64,000 nucleotides of DNA. Source: Microglena sp. YARC. Taxonomy: Eukaryota > Chlorophyta > Chlorophyceae > Chlamydomonadales > Chlamydomonadaceae. Of the stretch, positions 3,001 through 55,904 are shown piece by piece. The first letter of the stretch is position 1. Each line of letters begins with the position of its first letter. The stretch is from positions 78,815,421 through 78,879,420 of the forward strand of contig CM039462.1 of assembly GCA_022414725.1 (NCBI GenBank), given 5' to 3'. Made by a program: the position numbers and the translations under genes. A model generated the notes under the pieces. The model searched no databases and was not told the origin of the DNA. It saw nothing but the letters and a program-made list of their open reading frames with translations.

Positions 3001-5210
3001 CATTGAGATACACGAATAAAGTAGATATGTGCCCAAAGGTCCTTGTTTTAGTAAAGGTAAATAAAGCTGTTACAACAAGTAGAACGTCACAACTAGCAAG
3101 TGTGCGCCTAATGTCTTGTATTATTATTAAGGCGGTTCAAAGCTATACACAGCAAAATGAATAATACGTGTTATAGCACAGGCCTTTTATATCAGTACAT
3201 AGGTAGTACAAGGCAGTTATAAGGCTGTATAACAAGCAGTACGAACAATATGCAGGGTATGTGCCAAGGCTTCTTGTTATTCAGTACAAGGCCGGTACAA
3301 GGCTTTTACTACAAGTAAAACAACAAGTATGTATGGCGCCCATAGTTCTTCTATCAGTATAAGGTAGTACAGTTAAAATTGGAAAAATCAAGTGGGTATT
3401 GTGCCAAGGTCCTTGTATCAATATAAGGCAGTTCAAGGCTTGTACAAAAGATAATGGAATAAAGTAGGTATGCGCAAGGGCTTTGTATCAGTAACGGGCG
3501 GTACATAGGCTTTACAACAGTAAAACGAACGCAAGTAGGTATGCGCCCAAGGTTCCTTCTATCAGTATAAGGTAGTACAGTAAAATAATAAGTGGGGTAT
3601 TGCCAAGGTCCCTGTATCAATATAAAGGCAGTTCAAGGCTGTACAAACAAGCATATGAATAACGTAGGTATACGCAAGGCTTTTTGTTCTCAGTCACAAG
3701 GCAGTAAAGACTGTATAGACAGTTATTGACATAAGTAGGTAGTGCATCCAAGGTTCTTCTATCAGTATACGGCAGTACAGGGCTGTACCAATAAGCATAA
3801 CAATAATGAAGTATGTGGGCCAAGTTTTTCTATCAGTTAAGAAGTTTTATATTATCCTCGTATCAGTACAAAGCAGTATACGGCTGTACTAACCAATGTC
3901 GCAATGACAAGTAAGTATGTGCCACAAGGTCCTTATCTGAGTCAACGGCAGTACCAAAGGCTGTATAAAAGCAGACTGAACAAAGCGGCAATATGTGCCA
4001 AGGTCTTGTATTGAGTAAGGTAAATAGCTGTACAACAGCTAGAACGACAAACAAGTGTGGCCCATAGGTGCTTGTATCAGTATCAGGCAGTTAACAGGCT
4101 GTATAACAAGCAGAATGAACAAAGCAGTATGTGCAAGGTCTTATATGAGTAAAGGCCAGTACCTAAGGTGTTATAAAGCAAGTAGATTTCACAGCAGGTG
4201 TGATTTCTAAGTTCCTCGTATCAGTAAAGGAAGTAGAAGACTGTACAAATAAGCATAAGGAACAAAGCAAAGTATGGTCCAAGGTCCTTGTTCAGTAAAG
4301 GTGATACACGGCTTTACAACAAGTAAAGATGAACCAAATGTATGCGTCCAAGGTTCTTCCATAGTATCCAGGCAGTACAGGGCTGTACAACAGCATAAGA
4401 ACTCAGCAAGTATGTGTTCAAGGTTTCTTCTATCAGTATAAGACAGTTTTTTTAATGATCCTCGTATCAGTAAGTATACGGCTGTTCACAAGTCGAATGA
4501 ACAAAGTAGTCATGTGCCTCAAGGTTCTTATACTGAAGTACAAGCAGTACAAGCTGTAATACAAGGCAGAATGAACAAAGCGCGGTATGTGCCTGCCCCA
4601 AGGGTCTTGTTAGAAGTGCAAGGTAATACAAGGCTGCTACAATGGAAGCATCAAACCCGAATAAAGTAGATATGTGCCCAAGGTCCTTGTTTTAGTACAA
4701 GGTAAATAAGCTGTACACAACAGTAGAACGCACAAAGCGCAAGTGTGCGCCATGTCCTTGTATCAATATAGGCGGCTTCAAAGTATACAACAAGCATACT
4801 GAATAACGTAGGTATTACCAAGCGCTTTTTATATCAGTACAGGGTAGTAGCAAGGCAGTATACAGGCTGCTAAACAAGCAGACCGACAAACAGGTATGTG
4901 CCAAGGCTCCTTGTATCAGTACAAAGGCCGGTACAAGGCTTTACTACAATAAAGCACAAACCAAGTTCGTATGCCCCATAGTTCTTTTACTATCAGCTAT
5001 ACAGGTAGTACAGTACACTGTCAAGTGGGTATGTGCCAAGGTCTTGTATCATATCAGGCGTTCAACGGCTGTACACACAAGCATAATGAATACAAGTCAG
5101 GTATAACCGCAAGGCTCTTGTATCAGTACAGAGGCGGTACAGGCTTTACAACAAGTAAAACGAACGCAAGGTAGGTAATGCGCCCACGGTTCTTCTATCA
5201 GTATGGTAGT
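1..5210. repeat. Higher-order satellite array, indel-rich
   Basis: The whole interval is variations on a roughly 70-bp monomer containing AAGGTCCTTGTATCAGTACA and a GTACAACAAG-type end. A landmark variant containing TTATTATCCTCG recurs near 533, 2212 and 3851, and a second variant near 1152, 2813 and 4449, so the monomers are organised in a higher-order unit of about 1.65 kb present three times. The first unit is clean, while later units carry many one-base indels, which looks more like poor consensus than biology. Short open frames here are repeat read-through, not genes. Confidence 0.9.
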
Positions 5211-6940: not shown

Positions 6941-6989
6941 TGCGAAATTGCGCTCGCTTCTCGTCGTCTGAATTTAGGGGGAACAATGT

Positions 6990-10480: not shown

Positions 10481-12704
10481 TTGCCTGTTTCGTCCGATTT
10501 GTTCGTGTTGAGCATCCAGGCAAGTGGATCCGTTTGGGTCAGAGACTGCGTCAATGCGTCAGCTTTGGTGGTCGACGACGTCTCCCTTTCCGGTGACGGG
10601 GGCGTCGTATGGGCTGTTTTGCCTGCTGGGGCAAGCGATATCGTATGGTTGAGGAAAGTGGGTGCTGCTTTATCCGTCGATTGCCTATTCGACGAAGAAG
10701 ATGAGTCGCTTATTGTGGCCCTGCATTTCGGTACGTTTTCCACACATTTCGAGATGGTGACGTTTGACCAGTCTTTGTCCTCATCGGTCGTAGCACTTCC
10801 CGCGTCTGGGGAGAACGTGGTGGTAGCATCCCAGTCCTCCCCGAGGACACCTGGCAACGCGCTCATGTTCAGAGGTATGTGCAACGCCGTGCTCGGAACG
10901 TACTCGGATGTGCGCCTTGCAAGTTCGCTACTCCTGTCGATTCGTGGTGATTCATCCTTTCCTGGGCTAGTGTGGCTTGCGGGATCCAATCAATTGGGGT
11001 ACCTGAGAACGCTGTTGCAGTGATCGGTTTGCGATAATAACAGAAGTACTTGTACTTCAGCTTGGATGAATGTCGTGTCCCTGCACAACTGTTCGTTGGA
11101 CAGAGCGATCATAGCGGCGGGCATCGCTGATTCTGGGTTGTTCATGTTGATGGTATCTATTAATGATATTGTAGATCCACGTGCTGTACGGATAGGATGC
11201 AGTAGGCAGCAGCTACAGCGGCAATCGTTCATTTTTCTATCGAACACTTATGTTCCGGTACCGGTGGTGGGGGTGTTCTGGCATTGCAGCTTCCCGGTCC
11301 ATTCGTCTTCTCTCAGCTCCCTGGCGCGGCGATGGAGGCGCTCGGTGGCGTGTACCTGTCCGGGAACCGGCAGGTTTTTTCTCCGTCTGTGGGGGGCGCG
11401 GGCCTTGTGTTGGCAGCCCCTGACGCGGACGTTGGAATCGTGGCCTCGGGAGATGTCCACCTTCGGAGCACCTTGGGAGAGTGCGAATTTCCTCTGATAT
11501 CGTGGCCGAGCGGGACTGTCGCGTGCTGGGAAGTTCGTGTTTCCTGGGTCCCACCCTCGTTCGAGGGCGCCCTCCGCTTTCAACGAGGAACTTGTCGTGG
11601 ATGGCGACTTGTTTGTGAATCGGTCGATGTCGGTACGTGGTTCGGTATTTTTAGATGGCCCCGTCTCCATGGCACCTTTGGGTCCACCCGTCCGGCTTTC
11701 AGACAACGCGCTGACCGAGGTCGGTCAGATTGTTTTGCGGACAGGGACTTATGGACGGGCGCGGACTTATGCGGCTCTCTGGTCGGAGGGACTTATGCGG
11801 ACGATGAGGACCCGCGTCTATTGTTTAAAGGCTTATCGCATCCGGACACAGCCCAGCGGTACTACGGGCGTGCGCAGATGGGCGAGGTCGGGGGGGGCAG
11901 AGTCTGGTGGACGCGGCGTGGGTGTACGCAGACGGTATGGGAGACGCGCGACCGCACCGTTGGGACGTTCCTGCGTTTGTCCGAGTCTATAAAGTTGCAC
12001 GCTGGCCAGAAGTTAAGGGCTAGCGTGGACGCTTCTGGGGGGGTGCTTGTGCTTGCAAACGACGGTGATTCGCGTTTCCCACTGACCGTCAGTGGAGATG
12101 CACCGTCGGACCTCGTGCAGGCGGCGTTTGGATCCTCTATATCGAGGCCGCCTGTAGCTCCGTTGCCGAGTTACACGGGAATGCGTTTGGAGAGGGGTGG
12201 GGACTTGGTTGATTCTAGGTGGCGAGGGGGGGTGGCGTGATGCAGGTGTCCGACGTTGGCGTCGCCTTGGATCTGAACCCTGCAGGCGGTCTTGTGCGTG
12301 TGAACGGTGTGCCGATTCAGTCCACGTCGGACGGGCGCCAGAAGACGAATCGCTCGGATCTTTTGGGTACCTCGTCTGCGGACATTTTGCGGAGGCTGCG
12401 TCCGTGCACGTACACCCACCGTGGCGTGGTGGAGGCGGGGTTCATAGCACAGGAGGTGTTCAGCGAGGTCCCGGAGATGCGTCACCTCATCTCATTCCCT
12501 AGAGACTTTGAGATCGATGACAACAACACGCTTGGCAATGCGCCGGTCGGGTCAGTGGGTTTGAACTATGTAGGCATTATCGCGTACCTAGTGAGCGCGA
12601 TGCAGGAACAAGCAAAAAAGATCGAGGACCTCCAGGCGAGGATCTCACACGGCGTTGTTGTCCCCGGACGTGAGTCTCGCGAGATTGGAAAGCGATCGAC
12701 TTGA
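10481..12704 (+). pseudogene. Fibre-like protein with C-terminal S74 intramolecular chaperone domain
   Basis: The last 155 codons (from ATG 12240) are a clear peptidase S74 / endosialidase-type chaperone domain. They hold TSDGRQKTNRSDL with the Ser and Lys of the self-cleavage dyad spaced S-x4-K as in the family, then GFIAQEVFSEVPE, GLNYVGIIAYLV and a terminal coiled-coil QEQAKKIEDLQARI. Family members trimerise fibre proteins and then cut themselves off. Upstream, an open stretch of about 180 codons (10481-11023) and a segment with LVVDGDLFVNRSMSVRGSV and NALTEVGQIVLRTGTYG (about 11590-11750) are typical beta-helical fibre sequence, but at least three frame changes lie between 11020 and 12240. 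S74 fibres occur in phages and widely in giant viruses; the neighbours here point to the latter. Non-functional if the frameshifts are real. Confidence 0.75.
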
Positions 12705-13617: not shown

Positions 13618-14203
13618 ATGACAAATAATGAATGGGACGCTTCGCTGAAATTTTTCGCCGTGTTTCATCATCGTGATCATCATTGTAGGGTACCTCCGCG
13701 GATTCTACAGCGAGGTCTTGTTCGTGAGCTCGGACGTCGACGGTCGCGAATACCTGATGCGTCGGCTGCCCGACCGCCAGAACGCGGCGAACCTCATGGC
13801 GCGCATCAACTCGAATCTTAACAAGCTGGTTCAGCATCTCGTGGCCAAGTACCCGAAAAACCCGGTCGTGCGCCAGCTGTACGATAACTACAACCCAGAC
13901 GCTCTCTCGGAGGGCGGGGCGGAACTTGGGTACACATCGTACTCTGTAAACAAGGGTGAGAAGATCGTATTGTGTCTGCGTCAGCGTGACCACGAGCTAG
14001 TTGAGGAGAACATCCTCATGTATGTCGCGATCCACGAGCTGGGTCACCTCGCGACGGACGAGGTGGGACACACGCCCAAGTTCTGGTCGAACTTCAAGTG
14101 GATCCTGGGCGAGGCGATGTCTATCGGGCTCTACACCAAGGTCGACTTTGACAACGAGCCAAAAAAGTATTGCGGGATCAACATCACCTCATCTATCGTT
14201 TGA
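13618..14203 (+). CDS. WLM-family zinc metallopeptidase, membrane-anchored
   Basis: The main frame (13649-14203) contains the zinc-binding helix VAIHELGHLA with the third ligand in the following VGHTPKFW, the HExxH...GHxxxF arrangement of WLM/SprT-like peptidases. Also present are TSYSVNKGEKIVLCLRQRD before it and a C-terminal KYCGINI. Preceding these is a hydrophobic run (FIIVIIIVGYL) that looks like an N-terminal membrane anchor. An ATG at 13618 opens a short frame (MTNNEWDASLKFFAV) that joins the main frame only with a one-base shift near 13650-13670, so the start is broken or misread; otherwise translation would need the GTG at 13673. Family members with this anchor are frequent in algal and amoebal giant viruses; the substrate is unknown. 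All visible catalytic residues are kept. Confidence 0.75.
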
Positions 14204-24729: not shown

Positions 24730-25576
24730 TTACGTGAATCTCGATGTAATTGTGCTACTTTCTGCAATGATCTCCAGAACATGGTCTTGATTCTGAAAGT
24801 CGACAAGCGATCCGTCGTCGTTTTTGAGTGTGATGCCGATATGTCAGATCGCTGACAGAGGCGGGTCCCAAGTCTTTGGTGTCCCCATGATGGTCCGTAT
24901 CCCGCTAGATAGACTTCCGCAATGCTCGGACGTGGAAGTGTTCGTGGGATACTCGATCACTGCGAATGCGGTGTTCACGTTAGCGTTGGGGCTAACAAGT
25001 ACTTCAGCGCTCGGCTGCCACATCTCTACGACGATGAAAACGTCTGAACGCTAGTAGGTCGATACGGAACGGGGCCTCGAGTAGCCAGACGTTAGCGTCC
25101 GTGTCGAAGGTCGCTGACAAAATCGAATCAGACTCGAATCCTATGAGCCGCGCCGGACATGAGGATTCGTTGCCGAACCAAATACCGAACGCAGCATCCG
25201 GATTTGAGAACACGATCCGGCTGTCTACGCCCCTAAAAGACGCAGTGATAGAATGGGATCCTAACTGTGAATTCAAAGCAATAGCGAGAGCTGCACCAGA
25301 CATGTAATCGCCGCTTTGAAGCGCAAGTGTTTTGGGAGGGTGGGTGCCCACCACGATACCAAAGTCGCTATTTCGATGGCCTGGTAACGTGAAGGCTGCG
25401 TTGGGAAGAATAGCTCCTGCAAGATGCACCGACCGGATGTCCCTGATTTCCGTGTCGAGAATTACGGAGTAGTGGTTCGGACTGGGGTAGGTCGAATGGT
25501 CACGCGACCGACTATCGATCAAGATCTTGCGTTCGACACGGTCCGGAGACGACGACACATAGCTGCTCCGATCCAT
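24730..25576 (-). pseudogene. DUF5901-like giant-virus structural protein
   Basis: Starts at 25576 (MDRSSYVSSSPDRVERK). The N-terminal part has the signature of a family frequent in giant viruses: ILIDSRSRDHSTYPSPNHYS followed by IRDIRSVHLAGAILPNAAF, then a beta-rich body with LQSGDYMSGAALAIALN and AAFGIWFGNESS. After a frame change near 25020-25060 the C-terminal part continues in the expected style: SEHCGSLSSGIRTIMGTP (about 24890), a stop at about 24845, then DIGITLKNDDGSLVDFQNQ and termination at 24730. Likely a virion structural protein. One frameshift and one in-frame stop make it a pseudogene. It extends the viral signal to 25.6 kb, beyond the pherophorin-like gene. Confidence 0.65.
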
Positions 25577-25804
25577 TGTTTATTGCATTGTATTTGCCAC
25601 AAAAGAATAATCGTAAAGAAACGCAACACAGATGCCTGCGTCATCGAAACCACTCACTCCGTTGAATTTAAGCTACCCGTATATCCTCGAACCTATGAAT
25701 TTCTTATTACACATCCGGGGGTCCGGGGGACATGTAGTAAGAAAGACAATGAATTCTCCATAGGGGGGTATCATGGGGGTCAACTCTCCCGGGGATGCTG
25801 TCCT
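25577..25804. other. Intergenic, nothing recognised
   Basis: Short AT-rich stretch between the viral gene start and the Fanzor relic. No repeat end or coding signal was identified. Confidence 0.4.
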
Positions 25805-40591: not shown

Positions 40592-40709
40592 TCAAATAAA
40601 GTGGGACACACCTTACAAACTTTCCTCAGACTCCTCAAAAAATATTTGTAGTGAACTGTATCTGGTTTCATGGGATACAGAGTGTCCCAAAATTATTTGA
40701 GAACAACTT
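40592..40709 (-). mobile_element. M2-derived 118-bp MITE
   Basis: Both M2 end types are present in 118 bp: CAAATAAAGTGGGACACACC at one side and TGTCCCAAAATTATTTGAGA at the other, with the M2 left-end interior between them. It is inverted relative to 39260. Its outer edge supplies the stop codon of the adjacent LRAT-like gene. Confidence 0.75.
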
Positions 40710-41293
40710 TATGATATTGTGCACCCAGATGACCTAGAAGACGTTCGAAGCAAGGACTTGTCGAACTTTTGTATATCATCACAAATGTCTCGCAAAACTC
40801 GGTACACCTTGTCTGAGTTGTGCTTCAAGCCACCTGTCTTGCAAATCCATGCGAAACACTCACAATTCCAGTGGATCAAGTCATACTTGCGCACAGCCAT
40901 ACTTGGAGTTTCCACCATGAGCTTTGCTACGTTGGCAGCACGCTTACGATGGACAAGCTTGTCAGCAAAGTCAGTTGGAGAAGTATATTGCACAATTCCG
41001 TACGTTGTGTGGCGTGCGAGAAAATTGATGTAGGTATCAATTTGCAGGCGGGCATCGCGCATGCGTCTGTCTCCTGAGGGTGAAGTGAAGTGGGCGATAT
41101 CTGGGTCTTGGTCCAGACGGGACTCCCTGAGCACAATGCCATGGTGCGCATATCCATGGCGCCAACCTCCGCCCATCACGACGATGTGGTCTCCATGGGA
41201 GAGGAGCTTCCATGCCTCTGCAGTTGCATGCACTTCGGTTCCTTCAGGGGCCAACGTCCAATTACTAGTTGCTTGGTCCTCTATCATTGCCAT
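40709..41293 (-). CDS. LRAT/NlpC-P60-fold domain protein A
   Basis: 194 residues from ATG 41293. The fold signature is present in order: GDHIVVM, the catalytic-His block GYAHHGIVL (His about 50-51), and the nucleophile block IHWNCECFAWICKTG (Cys about 144), as in lecithin-retinol-acyltransferase-like proteins. These are acyltransferases or peptidases; substrate cannot be told. Closest relative in the window is the protein at 52157 (shared TLAPEGT, RMRDARLQI, NCECFAW). Codons upstream of the ATG remain similar between the two (RARRR), so an upstream start or exon is possible. The stop codon TAA lies in the abutting M2 MITE end. Confidence 0.7.
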   Translation of the reverse strand: MAMIEDQATSNWTLAPEGTEVHATAEAWKLLSHGDHIVVMGGGWRHGYAHHGIVLRESRLDQDPDIAHFTSPSGDRRMRDARLQIDTYINFLARHTTYGIVQYTSPTDFADKLVHRKRAANVAKLMVETPSMAVRKYDLIHWNCECFAWICKTGGLKHNSDKVYRVLRDICDDIQKFDKSLLRTSSRSSGCTIS

Positions 41294-41427
41294 CCGCCTA
41301 CGTGCACGGCGAATTATTATACGTTGCAAGCAAGTAATTGCACGACAAAATCGTGTCGGATAAATGCATTGTTGTACGTGTGTGTCTAATAAATCCCAAA
41401 TTCTAGTTGGTAATGCTTTAATTGCTA

Positions 41428-41690
41428 CAGTCGACGGAATACTAAAGTGAAACCGCCTCGTGTACGGCACACCTTACGGTGTAACCAAATGGTGTAGCAA
41501 CCCACGGGGCAGTGGAACACCAATACGATTTTGAACTAACAAATTGCAGGATGTTAACGAGAATATCGTGGTTCTTTTTTAGATCACGGCTCTCCATCCT
41601 GCAGACTCCGTATCGTTCTTTTGTGGGTACTTTCGAGAGTGTCCATTGAAGGACCAGCCGCACTTAAGCGATCGACTCTTCCCCAGTACG
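41428..41690 (-). mobile_element. M1 copy, 3' part in reverse, truncated
   Basis: CAGTCGACGGAATACTAAAG after TA (41426-27), then the M1 interior up to CCCCAGTACGG at 41690 where similarity stops. Confidence 0.8.
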
Positions 41691-41910: not shown

Positions 41911-42034
41911 ACGTAGCACCATTAGATGCACATTGTACCAAGGCTTGACGTGTTGGCACTGCGCAAGATACCATCTACAGTTTGGGCGGGATTGAATGGG
42001 CGTTCCTGCTTCCGAACGGATTTTTTATTTTACT

Positions 42035-42210
42035 GAAATCTTACGATAAATATTGTAAGATCGTTTTCGCAAATTAATTGATTTTGCTTTTTTGGTGTAT
42101 TTTACGAAAATATCTTACAATTTATTTTGTAAGATCGTTTTCGCAAATTAATTGATTTTGCTTTTTTGGTGTATTTTACGAAAATATCTTACAATTTATA
42201 TTGTAAGATT
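42035..42210. repeat. Subterminal 74-bp tandem repeat with palindromes
   Basis: Two copies of a 74-bp unit containing TTTTCGCAAATTAATTGATT, bounded by CTTACAATTTA...TTGTAAG palindromes. Related palindromes near the other end are at 51738-51752, 51815-51834 and 51959-51982. These are candidate transposase-binding sites. Confidence 0.75.
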
Positions 42211-42889
42211 GTTTTGTTGTATTCAGAAGAAAGAGACTATTCCCTTCAATTTCAATTGTAACATTGATTTGCTCGTTTGGAGAGAGAGAAAGTTCCTTCG
42301 AAGTATTCCAATACAAAATCAATTGTAGAGGACAGTCAAGAGGAAGGTGAAAGCTGTTTACAAAGTCTTGAACGCATTGCTCATAATTATTTATCTCACA
42401 ACTCACAACTCAACAGTTCGAAAGTACAACTTAGTACTTATGACTCCGAAATCTGTACTTATGTGTACCTCACTTATGTATAACTCACAACTCAGAACTT
42501 ATATGTACTTATACAAGTCAGAACTAATAACTCCTAACTCAGGACTTATTATTCATAATTTCATACCTCATAGCCTCATTATGTACATAACACAAATTTA
42601 TATCCTTAAATCTGCAAACTGCCATCCTAGAATCCTGAAATCACTCAAAATGTGTGTTGGATAAGGCAAAACTAGTACACTCGTGCAACTTGTGCACGGT
42701 GCTAATGTTGCACTGCTGCCAACAAGTCCATTGGTGATAACTTCTGCACTTGGTGCTGACAGGTCATGTGCTAACTGACGCCATGGTGCTACCTGACACA
42801 ATACTGTCTACTCTAGATTGGCTGTGGGAACAGGCTATCACGTTGTAGAAAGAGGGCCAATGCTAACTTGTTGGGTAACAACAGCGCCT

Positions 42890-43141
42890 GTACAATCGCT
42901 GCACTAGAATCTCCTCCTCCATGCCCCATCCCCATCTTCCTCCTCCTCATCTCCTCCTCCTTAGCAATGTCTACATTGTCTCCATCCGATTGCACAGCCT
43001 CTGCCTTGGTGTCCTTCTCAATGGATTGGCAGCTTGACCCCTTTGCATGACTCTTGCTGTGCATTGATTGCCATGCCCAGCACCTTCTCTGGCAGCTTGA
43101 CCCCTTTGCATGACCTGGCAGCTTGACCCCTTTGCATGACC
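42890..43141 (-). repeat. Left-arm inverted copy of the transposase acidic-tail region
   Basis: 42895-43030 (ATGCCCCATCCCCATCTTCC ... CTTCTCAATGGATTG) is the reverse complement of about 51517-51640 in the right arm. It is followed by three or four copies of GGCAGCTTGACCCCTTTGCA. It shows that the left arm is a rearranged inverted copy of the right arm. Confidence 0.8.
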
Positions 43142-44289
43142 CCTTGATATGCATTGATTTACCCCCCTTGCCGGGCCCCCCCTTGCTGCGCATGCATGAA
43201 AGACTGTTTTGATAAGTCGGAAAGGGTTTGCTTCATGCCTTGCGCTTTCACCTCTTTTCAAGCCTTGCGCTTTCACCTCCTTTCATGCCTTGCGCAAATT
43301 GCCTTTCGCATCCTGCATTGCTTTGCTGCGCATCTGCATTAGCACAGGGTGGCCCTGCATGGTCCCGAGTTGCACCTAATTCTCGCACCCTTTGCGCAAT
43401 GCATTTCACTGCTATGGGAATTCACTTCAGCTCTGTTCTCATGATCTGCTGCTTTGCCTTTCGCTTTCTGCATCGCCTTGCTGCGCATCTGCATTAGCAC
43501 CGGGTGGTTGTGAATAACCCCCGAGTTGCTTCTAATTCTCGCACCCTTTGCGCAATGCATTTCACTGTCACTGTCCTGCCTAGCACCTTCTCTGGTGGAT
43601 GCTGGGCAGATAGCCAGGAGCACTGGCGCTCGGAGCACTGGATAGGTCTGCCTACCTGCATGGCGGTTACCCGCCTGCACCTGCCAGACCAGACCAGGAC
43701 ACGCGCCGGGCCAGCACCTGCGCCGGAGTACTGGCGTACAGCTCTGCACCCGCCTGCACCTTCCTGAGGCCTGCCTACCTGCATGATGGTTACCCGCCTG
43801 CACCTGCGTCAGAGTAATGGCGGACAGTACTGCATACCCATATGGCATGCATCCTTAGCTACCGTTCCAAGATTTCCATAGCGTCTGGTTTGGTTATGAA
43901 TTGCATTGTAGTGGTAGACTGCAATTGTAGCCCAGACTTAGCTTGCCTTGTGCCTGTGTTGACCAAGTTACTGCTTGCCAACAGGTTGCCTTGTTTATTG
44001 GTTAATCTTTGCCGGAGTGTGGTTGGGTGTTTATGTTGTGATTGGTACTTTACATGACACTGACATATGGATCATGTACACCTGCAGTTCTTCTATTTTA
44101 CTGTGTTCTTGCCCACCTCGGCCACCTACCTATTTACTAGCTTTGTTTTAGTGGCCCAGTACTGCAATAGGTAAAGCAAAGATGTGAAGTTGAGGCCTGC
44201 TTGACTTGCATAGCATGACTGATGAAATGTCATAGCCCAGAAGAATTTAGCCCTTTTGCCTGTTCCGTCTAGGCATTCGGTGGATCAAG
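43142..44289. other. Left-arm sequence, no gene recognised
   Basis: Contains short direct repeats (CATGCCTTGCGCTTTCACCT; CTGCGCATCTGCATTAGCAC; GGTTACCCGCCTGCACCTGC). Open frames on both strands are repeat-derived and lack motifs. Confidence 0.5.
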
Positions 44290-46440
44290 TTTTCTTTGAC
44301 TGGTTTTAGGATTGATTTTCTATGATCGGGAGGACTGTGTGTATTCCGAGTTTGGTTTTTCTCAATCATTCGCTCGTTGGGTTTGACAATGCTCCCGATT
44401 ATGATCGGGAGGACTGTGGGTATTCTGAGTTTGGTTTTTCTCAATCATTCGCTCGTTGGGTTTGACAATGCTCCCGATTATGATCAAGAGGACTGTGGGT
44501 ATTCTGAGTTTGGTTTTTCTCAATCATTCGTTCGTTGGGTTTGACAATGCTCCCGATTATGATAGGGAGGACTATGGGTATGCCAAGTAAACAAAAAAAC
44601 AAAAACAAAAAAAATGCCGAGTACATGTTTTCTGAATCATTCGCTCGTCAGGTTTGTCAGTGCTCCCGATTATGATCGGGAGGACTGTGTGTATTCCGAA
44701 TTTGGTTTTCTCAATCATTCGCTCGTTGGGTTTGACAATGCTCCCGATTATGATCGGGAGGACTATGGGTATTCTGAGTTTGGTTTTTCTCAATCATTCG
44801 TTCGTTGGGTTTGTCCATGCTCCCGATTATGATCAAGAGGACTGTGGGTATTCTGAGTTTGGTTTTTCTCAATCATTCGTTCGTTGGGTTTGACAATGCT
44901 CCCGATTATGATAGGGAGGACTATGGGTATGCCAAGTAGACAAAAAAAAAAAAAAAAAAAAAATGCCGAGTACATGTTTTCTGAATCATTCGCTCGTTAG
45001 GTTTGTCAGTGCTCCCGATTATGATCGGGAGGACTGTGTGTATTCCGAATTTGGTTTTCTCAATCATTCGCTCGTTGGGTTTGTCAATGCTCCCGATTAT
45101 GATCGGGAGGACTGTGGGTATTCTGAGTTTGGTTTTTCTCAATCATTCGTTCGTTGGGTTTGTCCATGCTCCCGATTATCATCGGGAGGACTGTGGGTAT
45201 TCTGAGTTTGGTTTTTCTCAATCATTCGCTCGTTGGGTTTGACAATGCTCCTGATTATGATCGGGAGGACTGTGGGTATTCTGAGCTTGGTTTTTCTCAA
45301 TCATTCGTTCGTTGGGTTTGACAATGCTCCCGATTATGATCGGGAGGACTGTGGGTATTCTGAGTTTGGTTTTTCTCAATCATTCGTTCGTTGGGTTTGT
45401 CCATGCTCCCGATTATGATCGGGAGGACTGTGGGTATTCTGAGTTTGGTTTTTCTCAATCATTCGCTCGTTGGGTTTGACAATGCTCCCGATTATGATCG
45501 GGAGGACTGTGGGTATTCTGAGCTTGGTTTTTCTCAATCATTCGTTCGTTGGGTTTGACAATGCTCCCGATTATGATCGGGAGGACTGTGGGTATGCCGA
45601 GTACAAAAACAAAAACAAAAAAAAACAAAAAAATATGCCGAGTACATGTTTCTGAATCATTCGCTCGTTGGGTTTGACAATGCTCCCGATTATGATCGGG
45701 AGGACTGTGGGTATTCTGAGTTTGGTTATTCTCAATCATTCGCTCGTTGGGATTGACAATGCTCCTGATTATGATCGGGAGGACTATGGGTATGCCAAGT
45801 CAAAAAAAAAAAAAAAAAAATATGCCGAGTACATGTTTTCTGAATCATTCGCTCGTTGGGTTTGTCAGTGCTCCCGATTATGATCGGGAGGACTGTGGGT
45901 ATTCTGAGTTTGGTTATTCTCAATCATTCGCTCGTTGGGTTTGACAATGCTCCCGATTATGATCGGGAGGACTATGGGTATGCCGAGTACAAAAAAATTT
46001 AAAAACAAAAAATTTGCCAAATACATGTTTTCTGAATCATTCGCTTGTTGGGTTTGTCAGTGCTCCCGATTATGATCGGGAGGACTGTGTGTATTCCGAA
46101 TTAGGTTTTCTCAATCATTCGCTCGTTGGGTTTGTCAATGCTCCCGATTATGATCGGGAGGACTATGGGTATGCCGAGTACATGTTTTCTGAATCATTCG
46201 CTCGTTGGGTTTGTCAGTGCTCCCGATTATGATCGGGAGGACTGTGTGTATTCCGAGTTTTGTTTTCTCAATCATTCGCTCGTTGGGTTTGTCAATGCTC
46301 CCGATTATGATCGGGAGGACTGTGTATATTCTGAATTTGGTTTTCTCAATCATTCGGTCGTTGGGTTTGACAATGCTCCCGATTATGATCGGGAGGACTG
46401 TGGGTATTCTGAGTTTGGTTTTTCTCTATATCTGAATCTG
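44290..46440 (+). repeat. About 79-bp repeat array built on the palindrome CTCCCGATTATGATCGGGAG
   Basis: Roughly 27 units, each with CAATGCTCCCGATTATGATC GGGAGGACTGTG and a TCAATCATTCG(C/T)TCGTTGGG part. Poly-A blocks interrupt it near 44597, 44941, 45605, 45799 and 45990. Each unit can fold into a hairpin with a stem of at least 8 bp. Frames encoding ...APDYDREDCGY... are repeat read-through. Confidence 0.95.
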
Positions 46441-46497
46441 ATTTTGAATCTGAATCTGAATCTGAATCATTTGCTTTACCAACCTATTTGTCTTCCG

Positions 46498-46795
46498 CAG
46501 GGTCTACAATGACAGTACCGTGGAAGTAAAACTCCAATCGGACGGGAAGGATTTGGGATGCGGCGTCATGGACGAATGGACCAAGGAGCGCCAAGTGCCA
46601 ATGAACATCGAAGTCGTTGTTGGTGGACCAGACTTCTATGTTACGGCTACGCACGCTCACTGGTTGAGGTTTCGCGGCGAATGCAGGCATATGTGCGGAG
46701 CATTCTGGTCGACACTCACCCTTGTGGAAGTCAAGACAGCCCAGTTGCTTGAAGTCACTAGCATTCGGAGGCCCATGTCAGGAGCTGGGCTATAA
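46498..46795 (+). pseudogene. Element-internal exon-like frame, left arm copy
   Basis: After a CAG acceptor-like site at 46500 the frame reads VEVKLQSDGKDLGCGVMDEW, then TKERQVPMNIEVVVGGPDFY, TATHAHWLRFRGECRHMCGA and LLEVTSIRRPMSGAGL with a stop at 46795. It has a C-x3-C/H cluster (GECRHMCG). An inverted copy is at 47217-47640. It may be an exon of the transposon's own gene, duplicated by the palindrome. Family unknown. Confidence 0.5.
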
Positions 46796-47216
46796 GGAGA
46801 TAACAATTTGAATACGATGACCTTACAAAGTTGTCGGCGATCTGTCCTCTTCGTTGATTGTAGGAAGCTGACCTCGTCGCGCCTTTCCTGACTTCTTCGC
46901 GGAGGCCGTAGGAAATGTAAAGAGTGCAGAAGTTACGCAATATCCTATCGAAATTGAAAGCGGCAAGTGCGGTCAGCACACAATGGTTGTTTCGAACGGT
47001 GTACATCCCACCGCGTACGTAACATTCGAAATGTACCTGTCAGATTTGAAATTTAACCTGAGCCACGGTGCAGCAGTACAGTCCGTTCGATTGCTCTCAT
47101 ACCGGCGTCAGGTAAAGGCCCTTTTGGTGTACATCGAGGTGACGTCCTCCTGTCGCTAGGACCAAACTCCTCGAAATCGCTCCTGAGCTTTCCTTCGCAT
47201 GTCTCAACCCACCGCC

Positions 47217-47640
47217 CTAGTTCCTCAAGCTCTTTGTCGGCGATAAATTCCGCCCTCGCCGACCCTGACAGGCTTGCTGCGCATTTGTCAACCTCCAACC
47301 CAAGAGCCTGAATGTGAACTGGTATCCATGATAGGGCTCTAACATGGGCCTCCGAATGCTAGTGACTTCAAGCAAAAGGGCTGTCTTGACTTCCGCAAGG
47401 GTGAGTGTCGACCAGAATGCATCTGCTCCGCACATATGCCTGCATTCGCCGCAAAACCTCAACCAGTGAGCGTGCGTAGCCGTAACATAGAAGTCTGGTC
47501 CCACAACAACGACTTCGATGTTCATTGGCACTTGGCGCTCCTTGGTCCATTCGTCCATGACGCCGCATCCCAAATCCTTCCCGTCCGATTGGAGTTTTAC
47601 TTCCACGGTATTGTCATTGTTGACCCTGCGGAAGACAAAT
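47217..47640 (-). pseudogene. Element-internal exon-like frame, right arm copy
   Basis: The reverse strand repeats the frame of 46498-46795 with few changes (VVVVGPDFYVTATHAHWLRF, CRHMCGADAFW) and reads further: LLEVTSIRRPMLEPYHGYQF then FRLLGWRLTNAQQACQGRRG. The extra codons beyond the left copy suggest this copy is nearer the ancestral form. Same unknown family. Between the two copies, 46800-47216 is a single-copy centre with no recognised gene. Confidence 0.5.
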
Positions 47641-47689
47641 AGGTTGGTAAAGCAAATGATTCAGATTCAAAATCAGATTCAGATTTAGA

Positions 47690-48990
47690 GAAAAACCAAA
47701 CTCAGAATACCCATAGTCCTCCCGATCATAATCGGGAGCATTTTCAAACCCAACAAGCGAATGATTGAGAAAACCAAATTCGGAATACACACATTCCTTG
47801 GGATCATAATTGGGAGCACTGACAAACCCAACGAGCGAATGATTTAGAAAACATGTACTCCGGCATTTTTTTTTTTTTTTTGTACCTCGGCATACCCATA
47901 GTCCTCCCGATCATAATCGGGAGCATTGTCAAACCAGACGAACGAATGATTGAGAAAAACCAAACTCAGAATACCCACAGTCCTCTTGATCATAATCGGG
48001 AGCATTGTCAAACCCAACGAGCGAATGATTAAGAAAACATGTACTCAGCATATATTTTTTTTTTTTTTTTTTTTTTACTCGGCATACCCATAGTCCTCCC
48101 GATCATAATCGGGAGCATTGTCAAACCCAACGAACGAATGATTGAGAAACACCAAGCTCAGAATACACACAGTCCTCCCGATCATAATCGGGAGCATTGA
48201 CAAACCCAACGAGCGAATGATTGAGAAAACCAAATTCGGAATACACAGAGTCCTCCCGATCATAATTGGGAGCATTGTCAAACCCAACGAGCGAATGATT
48301 GAGAAAACCAAATTCGGAATACACACAGTCCTCCCGATCATAATCGGGAGCTCTGACAAACCCAAGAGCGAATGATTCAGAAAACATGTACACGGCATTT
48401 TTTTTTTTTTTTTTTTTTTTGTACTCGGCATACCCATAGTCCTCCTGATCATAATCGGGAGCATTGTCAAACCCAACGAACGAATGATTGAGAAAAACCA
48501 AGCTCAGAATACCCACAGTCCTCCCGATCTTAATCGGGAGCATTGACAAACCCAACGAGCGAATGATTGAGAAACCAAATTCGGAATACACAGAGTCCTC
48601 CCGATCATAATCGGGAGCATTGTCAAATACAACGAACGAATGATTGAGAAAACCAAATTCGGAATACACACATTCCTCCCGATCATAATCGGGAGCACTG
48701 ACAAACCCAACGAGCGAATGATTCAGAAATCATGTACTCGCATTTTTTTTTTTTTTTTTTGTACTCGGCATACCCATAGTCCTCCCTATCATAATCGGGT
48801 GCATTGTCAAACCCAACGAAACGAATGATTGAGAAAAACCAAACTCAGAATACCACAGTCCTCTTGATCATAATCGGGAGCATTGTCAAAACCCAACGAG
48901 CGAATGATTGAGAAAACCAAACTCGGAATACACACAGTCCTCCCGATCATAATCGGGAGCATTGACAAACCCAACGACCCTATTCGCTTG
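47690..48990 (-). repeat. Inverted array of the same 79-bp palindrome repeat
   Basis: About 16 units in reverse orientation (CAGTCCTCCCGATCATAATC GGGAGCATTG), with poly-T blocks near 47863, 48055, 48400 and 48744. It mirrors 44290-46440. Confidence 0.95.
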
Positions 48991-49245
48991 AAGTCACCTA
49001 CTACACTGCTAGCTGCCAGGCAGATGCCTGGTCACCAGCTGCTAGAGTGGGTGTCGGACCTAAGCCCGGCACCGTTACTGATACAGCTATAGGCTGTATC
49101 ATTACATTCCCCCCAATCCCTGGTATTCTGGTACCCAGAATTCCTGGATTCCACAACACAAGTCATAAGGAGTAAGCCAGACAAATATTCCCGTGGAGAA
49201 GAAAAGTAGGGGGAAAGCAATCCTAAAACCAGTCAAGGCGTAGGT

Positions 49246-51684
49246 ATGACATCCGTGAAAAACTGTCTGAACAGTATCCGAAGCTCTTCTTGCACGCATC
49301 CGCTGATGCAATGGACAACAAGAAGACTAATCTTCCTCAGTCACGCCACTTCTCACATACAAAGAAGACCGCAGGAGGTGAACTTCTAAAGACACGCATC
49401 ATGTGTGAGTACAAATACAGCGCATGTAGGACATGTCCTCCCGATCATAATCGGGAGCATACACAGTATTTAAAACTTGAAATGATTACTTAACAAAATA
49501 ATGCTAATATTCTGACTTCATGTTTCCTTCTATGTTAACTCAGGATTATTCTCCAGGGAAGAGGCTTCATTGGTTATTGGGCTTTGCCATTCTACTCGCA
49601 GTCCATCAATCTGACTATATCATGCTTCCAACATTTCTTCAACCGGGTCCTTGAAGAAGAGGGGCAGCTTCCACCGTATTGCTTCTTGCAAATGGACAAC
49701 GCGGAAAAGGACAACAAGAACGCTTTCATGTTCGCATACTTGTCCTTGTTGGTTGAGATGAACTGGTTTGAGGAAGTGTACGTCCATTTCCTCCCTCCCG
49801 GACACACACACATAGCAATCTTGACCAAAAGTACTCTGTGATCTCGCAAGGGTTAAAGAACATGGAAGTGTACACCCTGGACCATCTGATGGGCATTGTT
49901 GGTAACTTATTCAAGAGAATGGGCCCTTACACAAGGCAAGACGTCGTGACCTCTATAGGGGACTTCTCCGCTGTCCTCCTAGACAACGTTTACAAGTTGT
50001 TCGGTCATGGCACTAGCACCGTCAAAGGAGTTAATCGCCGTTTACACGCATTCAAGATAACGAAAGGTCCAACGGGAGAGTCGGTAAGAATACTTGATAT
50101 ACTGATATTTACAAATTAAATGCTACCGTGCGTGTATGTACTGTCTGCACAATGCTCCCGATTATGCTCGGGAGGAATATGGGTGTGCCATGTCCTCATT
50201 GATTTACATGTACAGTCTTCAATACAAATTAAATGATACAAAGGAAGTTGTACCTAGGACCTACGATGTATTATCCAAGGGATGCTCCCGAGTATAGTCG
50301 GGAGGAATATGGGTGTCCTAAATGATTCACTAATACACAATACATGTTTGCACACCAACAATTGCAGGGGTCTATTACAAGGAGTATGACGAGTCAGGAT
50401 CTTGGAGAGGACAGTGGGACAATGACGCTGAACCTATTTACGTCCTCCAAGGCTTCCCACTGGTGGACACCAGAACAGTATTTAAGGAAGCCCCCGAGAT
50501 CAAGATTGAAGAGCTCGAGAATATCGAGGCAAACTGGGCGGCTGTCTGGAAGACTATTCATAACGAGAAGCCCGGAGGTGACGTCCTTGCAGGCCACATG
50601 GCCGATGGTCCTGTACAAACCGCCGGTGACGACCGTGCAGGACCCGTAGCTGATGTCCGTGTACGACACGCAGCGGAGGACCTTCTAGAACCAGAAGCCG
50701 ATGACCAGCAGCAGATGGATGAACCAGCAGCCGATGGCCCATCCATGCCCAGACCTTCAAACATATTGCCGAGAAGCTTCGTGAAACTTGGAAGCCAGCA
50801 ATAAGTGGTGGACTGATTTCTTCAACGTTGAGAAGAGTTATTGGAGCACTCAACCAGATGATGCTGTGACTGGGGAGTACCCGAAAGACCAACATTTTGT
50901 CGACTTTCCCATCGGAGTTGTTAGCAACCAGTCGTGTTCTGACACAGTCTGAGAAATCAATGGCCAAGCGCTTGATAGCATCATTGGATGACTTGTCCAT
51001 GGATGTGTCAGACCTTTTACCTGCAAGTAACGAGATTGCCAAGACTATGAAGGTCGCACACACTTTGGAGACTAATATGGAAAGGCCAGAGGAGGAGGAT
51101 GTGTTGTACTTATATTCTTCACAAGGGACGAAGCCGGATAGAAGAATAGCCTACGAGCCCACTACTGATTTGGTTGTTGGTCATGTCGCTGTGGTCAAGG
51201 TACAAATGGATGACTCTAGCGGATTGAGAGGATGGGACGTGGTGGAGGTCAAATCACTACCAGTGAATGGAGAAGTGGAATGTGTGTATTTAAAGCCCTT
51301 GTACTCTGGGGCTCAGAAGTTGGTGTACACTGAAACACAATACCCAACTTGGCCAGAAGATTGGATGGACCACAAGCTTGTGCTATTACCGTGGGGGTTA
51401 GGAGAAAAGCAACATGGACGGGCGATATTCCCATTGACGCATTTCAATTTAGCTGCGAACCCACCAAGGGTATGAAGATCCAGAGAAAGTACCACACAAG
51501 CATGCTCCTAGCTTGTCAATCCATTGAGAAGGACACCAGGGCAGAGGCTGTGCAATCGGATGGAGACAATGCAGACATTGCTGAGGAGGAGGAGATGGAG
51601 GAGGAGGAACATGGGGATGGGGACATGGAGGAGGAGAAGGAGGAAGAGGAGGACGAGGAGGGGGGGGAGGAGGAGGAGGAGTAA
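49246..51684 (+). pseudogene. DDE-type transposase, intron-containing, frameshifted
   Basis: Exon 1 (about 49246-49402) reads YDIREKLSEQYPKLFLHASA then DAMDNKKTNLPQS. It splices by GT-AG (49403-49543) in frame to GRGFIGYWALPFYSQSINLT, FLQMDNAEKDNKNAFMFAYL and FEEVYVHFLPPGHTH. A 2-nt disruption at about 49812 separates this from LDQKYSVISQGLKNMEVYTL. The D-x-M-D..KT, DN...NKN and GHTH...DQ blocks match a family of eukaryotic transposase-like proteins (DUF7869-like; name tentative). A second intron lies at about 50084-50367, then YKEYDESGSWRGQW, a charged linker, KSLPVNGEVECVYLKPL and a Glu-rich tail to 51684. The frame is also broken around 50800-50940. It probably mobilised this element and the 166-bp MITEs before decay. 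Confidence 0.7.
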
Positions 51685-51699
51685 GATGTTTGACACATA

Positions 51700-51990
51700 G
51701 CCGTTTTTTACTAAATTAGGAAAATTAAATGAATTATACTTACGATTTTTATTGTAAGATGTAAAAGCTGAATTCTGCCTGCCGACTTATAACCGTCCGC
51801 TTTCCCTTTATTTCTTACAATTATAATTGTAAGACACGAATTGATGTTAACACCTTTTGTTACAAAATATGGCATTTCAACGTTGTAACATTCGCAATCT
51901 GTACGTTTCTCCGTCTTTCAAGCTCATTTTAAGCATATTTTGTCAAAATTGACTACAATCTTACGATTTTTATCGTAAGATTGCATTTGG
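51700..51990. other. Right subterminal region of the transposon
   Basis: AT-rich, with three TTACAAT/ATTGTAAG-type palindromes and no coding signal. Confidence 0.6.
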
Positions 51991-52156
51991 AAAGCATCAA
52001 AAGACCCCCAAAAAGTGATTGTAAGATTGGAAATCCGTTCGGAAGCAGGAACGCCCATTATTGGATGTGCACACACAAAATTGACTGTTTCCGGATAGTT
52101 TTCGGTTTGCAGTTGCTACCTACCAACGCTATTTGTTGCATCGTGCTCGCAGGCGA

Positions 52157-52756
52157 ATGGCTAAGTTCATTGAACTTCTTGAGGGGCAGTCACAGGGACA
52201 CTTGACTCTAGCCCCGGAGGGAACTGTGCAGCATTTTAGCACAGATTCTTGGAAGCTCTTGAACCCTGGTGATCATGTGGTCGTGATTATCGGAAGGTGG
52301 CGCCTTGGTTATGCACACCATGGCATTGTGATAAGCCCTTATGGCCCTGGTCAAGATCCTCAGGTTGCGCACTTCGTGTCTCCGACTGGTGACATGTTGA
52401 TGCGAGATGCTCGATTACAGATCGGCTCGCACACCGAGTTCATTGGAGCAAGAGCGACTTTTGGTATCGTGCCGTATGCCTCTGCCAACTCCGAGGCCGA
52501 TAAATTCGAACGCCAACGCGCCGTTGACCTTGCCAAGTGGATGGTGGAATCACCTGAGTTTGCACGGAAGAAGTACAATCTGATTGCATGGAATTGCGAG
52601 TGCTTTGCTTGGGTCTGCAAAACTGGTGACATCAATGCGCATTCCCACCATGTTGAGCGTGTCCTAAAAGCCATCAGCGATGATCTGCGGAAGGGGGAGA
52701 GGTCCATTCTTCTGCGAACGGGAGCAGTTGATTCAAGTTCTTGTATTGTCGCATGA
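52157..52756 (+). CDS. LRAT/NlpC-P60-fold domain protein B
   Basis: 199 residues from ATG 52157. GDHVVVIIGRW, GYAHHGIVIS (His about 54-55) and IAWNCECFAWVCKTG (Cys about 147) give the complete His/Cys signature. It is a close paralogue of the protein at 40709-41293 (shared LTLAPEGT, LMRDARLQIG, AWVCKTG). The ATG is 97 bp downstream of the 10-kb transposon end, so any original promoter was displaced or is now contributed by the transposon. Intact frame. Enzymatic substrate unknown. Confidence 0.75.
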   Translation: MAKFIELLEGQSQGHLTLAPEGTVQHFSTDSWKLLNPGDHVVVIIGRWRLGYAHHGIVISPYGPGQDPQVAHFVSPTGDMLMRDARLQIGSHTEFIGARATFGIVPYASANSEADKFERQRAVDLAKWMVESPEFARKKYNLIAWNCECFAWVCKTGDINAHSHHVERVLKAISDDLRKGERSILLRTGAVDSSSCIVA

Positions 52757-54224: not shown

Positions 54225-54857
54225 TTAAACAAACCAGGCTTTGATTTTTTGTGTTGGATAAAAAGGCATCGCATGTGTCATCAGGTACACCTGAGCGGCA
54301 ATTCGAGACAACTTAACTGAATCCCACCTGAGCGTACGGCACCATGTCGCAAAGTGGTCACAGTTGCGGCCCAGCAAGTGATAGAGGCCAGAGCAATCTT
54401 GCAGATCCCTGTGCAGCCCCAACGCCAGTGCTGCCGAGAACTCCCGAAGCTCTGGTGTGTCGCTATCCCAACACATTACAGCAAGCTCAGGCCAGCCGGG
54501 GACAGCCATGAATTCGCCCAATGTACGCAGCCGGATCTTGGCCTCTTGTTTGCCCGCATCCTGTGAGCCCCAAAAATCAACCACGAGATTTTTACCCCCC
54601 TGCACTCCTGAAATGGGACCAACAAAGATTCCATGATGGAATCTCTCCTTGCTACCCGCTGTCCGAATGAGGATCTGATCGCCAGAAAGGAGCTCTGTGG
54701 CAACTTCAGCTATGTCAACGCGGCGGGCTGACTGCGGGAGCAAGTTGTGAATGCCCATGACATTCATCGCGCCCTCCATGAGGGCGAAAACGTCACTATC
54801 AGCACCTTCTGACTTTACGCCCAGGATCTTGGCCACCAACAACATCAGGCTGTTCAT
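54225..54857 (-). CDS. LRAT/NlpC-P60-fold domain protein C
   Basis: 210 residues from ATG 54857. N-terminal hydrophobic start MNSLMLLVAKILGVK, then LSGDQILIRTAGSKERFHHG (His 74-75), VVDFWGSQ, RTLGEFMAVPGWP and LLGRNCDHFATWCRTLRWD (Cys about 166). The HHG...NCDHFATWC arrangement is the classical LRAT/H-rev107 form, more canonical than the other three in the window. About 110 residues of N-terminal and spacer sequence differ from proteins A and B, so it belongs to a separate branch. Intact frame. Its start lies 53 bp from the M2/Fanzor element. Confidence 0.75.
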   Translation of the reverse strand: MNSLMLLVAKILGVKSEGADSDVFALMEGAMNVMGIHNLLPQSARRVDIAEVATELLSGDQILIRTAGSKERFHHGIFVGPISGVQGGKNLVVDFWGSQDAGKQEAKIRLRTLGEFMAVPGWPELAVMCWDSDTPELREFSAALALGLHRDLQDCSGLYHLLGRNCDHFATWCRTLRWDSVKLSRIAAQVYLMTHAMPFYPTQKIKAWFV

Positions 54858-54910
54858 CTCGACAGGCGTTGTTCACTTATTATCCTGGAAAGTAAATAAT
54901 TGAAACCATA

Positions 54911-55904
54911 CAGTTGTTCTCAAATAATTTTGGGACACTCTGTATAATTTGAATGATATCCCCTTAAACCAGATACAGGTCCGTGGTTCACTACAAGATC
55001 ACTACACAGATGGGTCAATGCTGATCAGGCTGGTAAAAGTAAGCGTTTAAAACGAAAAAGGAAAGAATTGTCCATGCTTTTACGTTCCACGATATCCAAT
55101 AATATTGCAGAGAACCCCTTCATAACATGCAAGGATTTGGTAGGTATAATTTGCAAGAGTTGTAATGTGAGATTATCGATCAGTACGGCATCGAGACACA
55201 TAAAACAATGTGGATTTTCTAGGAAGAAGGCGTTTCCCCCAGTTGACTTCGTAGCTCCGAGAGAGAAGAGCGCGAAGGTACTCGTCGGTTTTGGTGATTG
55301 GAAAGGTCTGGGGGCGACGCCAATCTCTAGGCGGACTTGTGGCCCTCTCCAAGCTATTCGTTTCGAGCTTCGTAGCCGAGGAAACGTCATCATGGAGGAC
55401 GTCGATGAGTTCAGAACATCTCAACGATGCAGCTGCTGTGAGAACCGCCTTAGCAACATGGTGGCACTCACTCATCGTAAGAAGCAAGACGGTACTGGTT
55501 GGGAATGTACAGAAGGACGCAAGCGGATTCACAAGATTCTCCACTACAAAAGCAGTCAAAGCGGAGCGCCACGCCAACAGAGCGGTGGTAGGCTCCACTG
55601 CGGGAAGACTTGGGACCGCGATGTGAACGCTTCCAGGAACATCCTGATGCTTACACTCCACCAAGTCTTTGGGAGAGAGCGACCTCTCGCGTTTCGCCGA
55701 GACGCGCCGAGAAGTTCCTCGAAAACCCCACCACCCCCTGATACTGATATGGGGACACAGACGGTTGAACGGTTTACCAAAGAGACTACTCGGAATATCT
55801 TCGAGAACCTCTTCAACCTTCTGCACCCCCCAACGTTGCCCAAACGCAACGATCTGCAGTCTGGATGATTATAAGGTGTGTCCCACTTTATTTGAGAACT
55901 ACTG
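54911..55904 (+). mobile_element. M2 transposon, full-length 994-bp copy
   Basis: Ends CAGTTGTTCTCAAATAATTT and ...ACTTTATTTGAGAACTACTG, flanked by TA (54909-10, 55905-06). The terminal repeats differ after about 18 bp (ATTTTGGGACACTC versus AAGTGGGACACACC), as between the two ends of other copies. It contains one coding region joining a transposase-type HTH to a Fanzor1 C-terminal half. Confidence 0.9.
55068..55868 (+). pseudogene. Fusion: IS630/Tc1-type HTH + Fanzor1 C-terminal half
   Basis: A 266-codon frame. Residues about 1-55 (STISNNIAENPFITCKDLVG, RLSISTASRHIKQCGFSRKK) look like the paired/HTH DNA-binding region of an IS630/Tc1 transposase. From about residue 60 it becomes the C-terminal half of a Fanzor1 nuclease: VLVGFGDWKGLGATPISRR, CGPLQAIRFELRSRGNVIME, DVDEFRTSQRCSCC with the alternative RuvC-II Glu next to the zinc ribbon, and KTWDRDVNASRNILMLTLHQ with the RuvC-III Asp. 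RuvC-I, the N-terminal nuclease lobe and the transposase catalytic domain are all absent. An internal deletion of an element that carried both genes is the simplest explanation. No activity expected from the nuclease half. Confidence 0.75.

Follow-up and report, generated by a model that had tools for sequence, protein, structure and literature searches.

How does a DNA transposon come to carry parts of its own interior twice, in opposite orientations, and in many copies? The question is posed by an element of 10,065 bp at 41995-52059 in a stretch of 64,000 nucleotides from the chlorophyte Microglena sp. YARC (assembly GCA_022414725.1, contig CM039462.1, forward strand, positions 78,815,421 to 78,879,420), called the window here and the source of all positions given without a locus name. 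With good though not full confidence we read the element as a derivative of a larger DUF7869 element, produced by deletion and inverted duplication and likely mobilised in trans by longer relatives; judged from sequence comparison, this form is recent and probably non-autonomous. The case matters because the passage from a two-gene transposon to a multi-copy derivative with an internal inverted duplication can be traced within one genome, where the transposase segments of the longer relatives and of the derivative are only about 1% apart.

A single insertion and its family

The element has perfect 29-bp terminal inverted repeats (TIRs) and the target-site duplication (TSD) ATTG on both sides, and the same pattern recurs in copies fetched from elsewhere in the genome; an earlier note on the window had rightly taken it for a single DNA-transposon insertion. 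That note also proposed looking for further copies in the host assembly, and the search (568 Mb) found a large family. The first 25 bp of the TIR, its core, have 671 exact genomic matches (329 on the plus and 342 on the minus strand), against none for the reversed control. Ten copies were fetched, picked among 40 scored left-end matches (479 candidates). All ten, like the window, have TSDs of 4 bp, and the ten sequences are all different, so that TIRs with fixed-length TSDs at many unrelated sites, the mark of a TIR DNA transposon, are found in every copy read. The A+T fraction of the TSDs is 0.61.

The whole layout (left array, left exon, centre, right exon, right array) is present in seven of the ten fetched copies, opposed arrays in nine, and the inverted fragment of the transposase-gene 3′ end in nine. 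Copy c1_50.0 has lost the middle, c4_14.22 lacks the centre together with half the left exon, and c2_52.2 has a single exon, of the left type, in inverted orientation; these three layouts are what recombination between arrays would give. Mean pairwise divergence among the copies, over unique parts, is 0.99% on the left, 1.63% in the left exon plus centre and 1.33% on the right. A 35-mer across the junction of left exon and centre occurs exactly at 80 places including the window (control, 0). A junction common to 80 loci, together with the low divergence, indicates that one rearrangement preceded the spread of the copies. The internal inverted structure is thus real and family-wide. At one further locus (L005, position 1705/1706) a copy is nested in another copy, at element position 6973 and in opposite orientation; one junction was seen.

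The features of the element follow. L052, L053, L055 and L056 are relatives at other loci, the sister loci belong to a related family, gene B is the second gene of the longer elements, and tp1 to tp4 are the surviving transposase segments.

41991-41994, no strand: left TSD ATTG, read directly; 4-bp TSDs also in all ten other copies
41995-42023, plus: left TIR, 29 bp, a perfect inverted match to 52031-52059
41995-42779, plus: ancestral left end, 92.5-98% identical to the left end of L052
42029-42221, no strand: left subterminal palindromic repeats, 74-bp period, ATCTTAC..GTAAGAT (families D9/D10 in the self-comparison)
42910-43031, minus: inverted fragment of the transposase-gene 3′ end, 94% to 51514-51637 inverted; in nine of ten fetched copies, with 3 fixed differences from the source arm
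43032-44295, no strand: left internal sequence, conserved among copies and unmatched in L052, L053 and three sister loci
44296-44318, minus: 23-bp inverted copy of the end of the right-arm filler, 49214-49236
44321-46430, plus: left hairpin array, read as inverted duplicate, units of about 79 bp, 24 palindromes
46437-46781, plus: left copy of the putative gene-B exon, read as the inverted duplicate, 96% to the right copy over 266 bp
46770-46804, plus: junction of inverted duplicate and centre, the exact 35-mer at 80 genomic places (control, 0)
46794-47339, minus: centre, likely the rest of the coding region of the exon pair, 83.5-90.8% to L052 6385-6613 plus 8602-8918
47339-47689, minus: right exon copy, oriented as in L052, 85% to L052 8922-9247
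47690-48979, minus: right hairpin array, oriented as in L052, 14 palindromes
48980-49236, no strand: filler (257 bp) in the position that gene-B exon 1 and the N-terminal exon of the transposase occupy in relatives; absent from L053
49237-49420, plus: transposase exon piece tp1, 5′-truncated, 98.9% to L055/L056, whose exon extends upstream
49438-49457, no strand: hairpin in transposase intron 1
49545-50083, plus: transposase DUF7869 core, frameshifted in the window copy (PF25273, E-values 3.5e-24 and 5.3e-08 in two frames)
50155-50304, no strand: two hairpins (50155-50174, 50285-50304) in transposase intron 2
50371-51684, plus: transposase C-terminal coding region, with frame changes in the window copy; source of the inverted fragment, at 51514-51637
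51700-52059, plus: ancestral right end including the TIR 52031-52059; the right end of sister s_c3_40.67 matches it at 73% over 148 bp
52060-52063, no strand: right TSD ATTG, read directly

Inverted parts and longer relatives

The inverted pairs that the earlier note listed are all recovered: 42910-43031 with 51514-51637 (94%), the arrays at 44.32-46.43 and 47.69-48.98 kb, and 46437-46781 with 47339-47689 (96%, best 266 bp). They do not share the common centre that it described, since the centres fall at 47.27 kb for the outer pair, about 47.06 kb for the exons and 47.03 kb for the TIRs, the outer pair being offset by about 0.2 kb. Its phrase "largely one giant inverted repeat" is overstated as well: 4,540 of the 10,065 bases (45.1%) have an inverted partner across the element middle, 2,666 in the left half and 1,874 in the right. 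Apart from TIRs and subterminal repeats, three pieces are present as inverted copies: the array-plus-exon block, the 122-bp piece of the transposase 3′ end and the 23-bp piece. Within the filler, 48985-49213 has at least 40 near-identical genomic copies (40 of 251 candidates were scored).

Genome searches with P0004 and with the P0011 N-terminus listed 150 transposase places each. In the relatives L055 and L056 an unbroken N-terminal exon is joined to tp1, their tp1 and tp2 are 98.7-98.9% identical to those of the window, and upstream, where the sequence read ends, gene-B exon 1 begins in divergent orientation, with its first 28 residues covered. Opposed TIR ends 13,663 and 14,534 bp apart (C1:61945387 and C1:8004295) enclose transposase N-terminal exons. 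When the 80 junction loci were compared with 56 of the 150 N-terminal matches listed, no junction locus lay within 15 kb of any of these matches.

In L052, gene B follows the left end on the minus strand (748-4835, three long open reading frames, ORFs), and homology to the window left end stops at 42779, adjoining the 3′ end of the gene-B reading frame. Both arrays of L052 are oriented like the right array of the window and opposite to its left array, and between them the centre plus exon piece occurs once, in the right-arm orientation. Gene-B exon 1 comes after the arrays in L052 and L053, followed by the N-terminal exon of the transposase, in decayed form, and by tp1-tp4 as far as an assembly gap. 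A reverse-transcriptase element (PF00078) at L052 6613-8602 splits the centre homology, at window 47020-47022.

These two pairs of loci together indicate that the right-arm exon and array are ancestral in orientation and the left ones an inverted duplicate, and that most of gene B and the transposase N-terminus were deleted in the window form. Coding parts that longer relatives with the same TIR have kept are lacking here, as in a non-autonomous derivative. The duplicated exon piece is assigned to gene B, putatively, on its place and strand among the gene-B pieces of L052/L053 rather than on protein similarity. In databases the exon pair has a single relative, P0006 (94% identity, 63% of the query covered).

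The sister family (L029/L049 at C1:438628-452023, L035/L050 and L040/L051) has tp2 DNA about 81% identical to that of the window, related TIRs, a DUF7869 transposase, a divergent second gene B and, at the one copy read at both ends, a TCTA duplication. In sister s_c1_0.45 there is one array, no part matches another in inverted orientation, and gene B and the transposase are divergent. Weak similarity (69% over 119 bp) also links the left terminal 785 bp of the window element to the sister left end. Judged by their matches to relatives, the two ends are distinct ancestral left and right ends, not copies of one another. Of the earlier view that the element is a transposase arm plus a degraded inverted copy of itself, the placing of the transposase gene in the right half stands; the left end is an ancestral one and did not arise by inversion of the right.

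The transposase belongs to the DUF7869 family, with a PF25273 match well above the cut-off (85.9 bits against 26); the sister-family transposase matches the same profile at E 1.4e-36. A profile search of the PDB for an RNase H-like DDE/D core gave a ribosomal protein at E 0.36 as its best hit, and the name DUF7869 (PF25273), a domain of unknown function, was not found in the literature searched. No close relatives of P0001 were confirmed in viral contigs or prokaryote genomes. In EukProt, P0007, P0008, P0010, P0012, P0014-P0018 and P0021-P0023 are 98-100% identical to the sister transposase, and P0020 is 90% identical, each over part of its length; the source of these thirteen proteins is probably the same or a very close species.

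Gene B has no Pfam match and a poor structure model (mean per-residue confidence, pLDDT, below 45), and PDB searches, made for L052 with one piece of the gene, gave no match. A DNA methyltransferase is weakly suggested by NCBIfam, where the match (E 0.011) scores 15.4 bits and the cut-off is 244, and by the look of some motifs; the ParB-like look of L052 3384-4835 was noted by eye only.

Origin of the 10-kb form

The favoured history would run as follows. A larger two-gene element would have lost the N-terminal part of its transposase and the greater part of gene B, and one coding piece would have been duplicated in inverted orientation with its hairpin array, possibly by template switching or by recombination at the hairpin arrays, before the copies spread; the order of these steps is inferred. 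The resulting 10-kb form would then be moved, by cut and paste, by the transposase of its longer relatives. Its ends, its TSDs and its recent spread indicate that the 10-kb form does move, and the missing N-terminus and gene B, along with the coexistence of near-identical longer relatives, suggest that it is probably moved in trans.

The age of the duplication can be approached by comparing the arms. Mean differences among 3′ fragments of one arm are 0.3-1.0%, against 4.2%, with 3 fixed differences, between the two arms; a divergence between arms greater than that within arms places the duplication before the spread. Copy-specific homogenisation of the arms was considered and rejected, since the exon arms differ by 2.86% within a copy and 2.88% between copies, and the C-terminal pieces by 4.16% and 4.14%.

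Several findings weigh against this history. In the exon-pair comparison (9 right sequences, c2_52.2 being left out, and 8 left sequences) no left/right difference is fixed, and right copies vary more than left ones (2.99% against 0.94%). The right-orientation exons of c2_52.2, c4_15.12 and c4_54.2 (3 of 10) are nearer to left exons than to other right ones, so that some exchange or flipping between arms must have occurred, and a simple course from original to duplicate needs arm exchange added to it. Sister s_c1_49.08 (L040 plus L051) also has two mutually inverted arrays, about 65% identical; opposed arrays may therefore have arisen more than once. The peptides of the exon and centre are unmatched in three sister loci, and their membership in gene B thus rests on position. 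A full working parent is inferred, the elements of 13.7-14.5 kb being known from their ends and the N-terminal exons that these enclose. All four surviving transposase segments are open in 4 of 11 copies (window included), one of which, c4_54.2, has about 1 kb extra between tp3 and tp4, and the shortened gene might still make something. The ratio of nonsynonymous to synonymous polymorphism (pN/pS) among copies is 0.83, a crude and near-neutral value that is not decisive, and the AlphaFold model of the transposase is poor (mean pLDDT 44.5).

A second copy might instead have inserted inversely into a first, most of both being deleted later and inverted pieces left behind. Nesting gives the observed order of pieces, and an inverse copy within a copy is seen at the single L005 junction; since the window element holds no trace of an inner TIR, and several deletions would be needed, all of them before the spread, we hold this origin to be unlikely.

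It is improbable, too, that the 10-kb form is autonomous, with a shortened working transposase and no need of gene B. The open segments just described and the high copy number would fit such an element. Set against them, P0011, a database relative of 368 residues with the N-terminus included, begins to match the window family only at about residue 120-126; residues 1-119 of P0011 were not found in the element, leaving it without the N-terminal 119-125 residues of its relatives, and an in-frame stop stands directly upstream of the start of the tp1 match. Longer elements with the same exact 25-bp TIR core also exist. The truncated transposase would probably not work.

The earlier note's own view was close to a head-to-head inverted dimer of the whole element, its left arm having later lost the transposase. 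The order in the left arm (3′ fragment, array, exon) is indeed colinear with the inverted right arm. The left end resembles the left ends of relatives and not the right end, the centre is single, and no internal TIR remnant was found inside the element at up to 9 mismatches; we reject a whole-element dimer on the ancestry of the ends and give the idea little chance.

Inverted repeats are a classic misjoin risk and this assembly has gaps, among them 1,000 N at about 5.2-6.2 kb of the window, yet chance or an assembly artefact can be rejected, the latter as next to impossible, on the TSDs of the family, the excess of palindromes, the 671 TIR ends, the same junction at 80 places and the same layout in seven of ten copies between different TSDs.

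The array palindrome, known systems and surroundings

Each array unit carries CTCCCGAT-TATG-ATCGGGAG. With up to 3 mismatches allowed, 41 matches to the palindrome lie in the window where 0.14 are expected, and every one of them falls within the element. The same stem stands singly in transposase introns 1 and 2 of the window (49438, 50155, 50285), in L055/L056 at the corresponding intron places and before the N-terminal exon, and in L052 between gene-B pieces. Written as CTCCC-N10-GGGAG, the palindrome was noted across 44392-50304 of the window and in L052, L053 and L054-L057, in introns and arrays. Intron 2 of the sister family has another form, for example CTCCCCTA-TGCG-TAGGGGAG, and related forms stand in the sister arrays; a loose pattern finds one more match inside the coding sequence of a sister gene B (s_c1_0.45 10954). 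No exact hairpin was found in sister intron 1 (s_c1_49.08 11150-11370), and the idea of a hairpin in every intron was rejected on that account. One form, TGCTCCC-N10-GGGAGGAC, has 8,867 genomic copies (4,336 plus, 4,531 minus; reversed control, 1). A scan of the element with Rfam gave no known RNA family at E 0.1, and the window contains no tRNA.

Covariation was examined in 39 types of 20-mer (404 occurrences, some in overlapping loci) against 2000 shuffles. Pairs 7:14 and 8:13 are complementary in 77 and 67% of types, compared with 42 and 45% when shuffled (reached by 0 and 4 of 2000), and pair 6:15 in 56% compared with 45% (reached by 25); pair 9:12 is not above the shuffles. Columns 10:11 are complementary in 85% compared with 45% (0 of 2000), and being neighbours they cannot pair in a hairpin, which points to dyad DNA symmetry or a fixed AT/GC centre. 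The paired stem changes between sister families appear to favour a kept stem, as support and not proof, since the types share ancestry; a dyad protein site would covary as well as a hairpin stem. The palindrome, with 8,867 exact copies of one form and a conserved stem, is an unexplained feature that looks selected.

One might go further and see in the palindrome a dedicated intronic hairpin that expanded into arrays, and in the 10-kb form a spreading silencer that makes double-stranded RNA against its full-length parents, in the manner of Mu killer. We regard this as a long shot. The exchange between arms, the lack of an exact hairpin in one sister intron and the result for columns 10:11 weigh against it as they do against the favoured history. 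If the inverted arms are transcribed, the family would offer a direct test, outside maize, of whether derivatives with inverted copies of their own sequence silence their parents or parasitise them.

The earlier note knew of no described element with this structure. That was too strong, because Mu killer (PMC3440606) and Foldback-type elements (PMC3573991, PMC4079207) are partial analogues, as far as the excerpts of these papers go. Mu killer is an internally deleted and partly duplicated MuDR of maize whose mudrA copies end in an inverted duplication, according to the same excerpt (PMC3440606). It shares with the window form an internally deleted derivative with partial gene copies in inverted duplication; comparison with the relatives shows an internal deletion and an inverted duplication of the element's own gene here as well, the exon being a putative part of gene B. 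Mu killer as excerpted is one locus, with both ends from the same MuDR end and the transposase gene duplicated (PMC3440606), whereas the window form keeps distinct ancestral ends, has chiefly duplicated a putative second-gene exon together with its array, and has spread to many copies.

In both Galileo and Tetris the inverted arms contain tandem repeats, which in Galileo hold extra transposase-binding sites, and Tetris is apparently non-autonomous, with ends common to another element, in the portions consulted of PMC3573991, PMC3688188 and PMC4079207. Inverted arms and tandem repeats of varying number are common to them and the window family. Their repeats are described there as lying inside long TIRs; here the TIR is 29 bp and the arrays are internal, 2.3 and 3.1 kb from the ends, unlike the long inverted repeats with tandem repeats that run inward from Foldback termini.

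Sola2, in the passages available, has AT-rich TSDs of 4 bp (AWWT; ATAT, AAAT, ATTT), short TIRs, and families with most of the transposase deleted (PMC3627910). The 4-bp TSDs and short TIRs are alike, but the TSDs here are not AT-rich in that way, AWWT fitting one of the 11; the comparison is by TSD and TIR only. KolobokP, a DNA transposon of eukaryotes, likewise combines long repeats with a second gene; its repeats, as given in the part consulted, are direct and terminal, unlike those here (PMC9587614).

In the window the insertion is flanked by ORFs with an LRAT domain (PF04970) at 40709-41473 (minus), 52085-52756 (plus) and 54225-54872 (minus), and the element sits just upstream of one of them. 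The ORF at 54957-55868 (plus) matches a Cas12f1-like TNB domain (PF07282, E 2.1e-07); it may be kin to TnpB/Fanzor. At 13649-14203 (plus) and 25004-25579 (minus) are a WLM metallopeptidase match and a sub-threshold DUF5901 match. Genes of the WLM metallopeptidase and DUF5901 types occur in giant viruses, and the region may hold virus-derived DNA. A tandem array at 29.83-32.83 kb has a spacing of about 181 bp, and its units also match one another inverted (about 76%).

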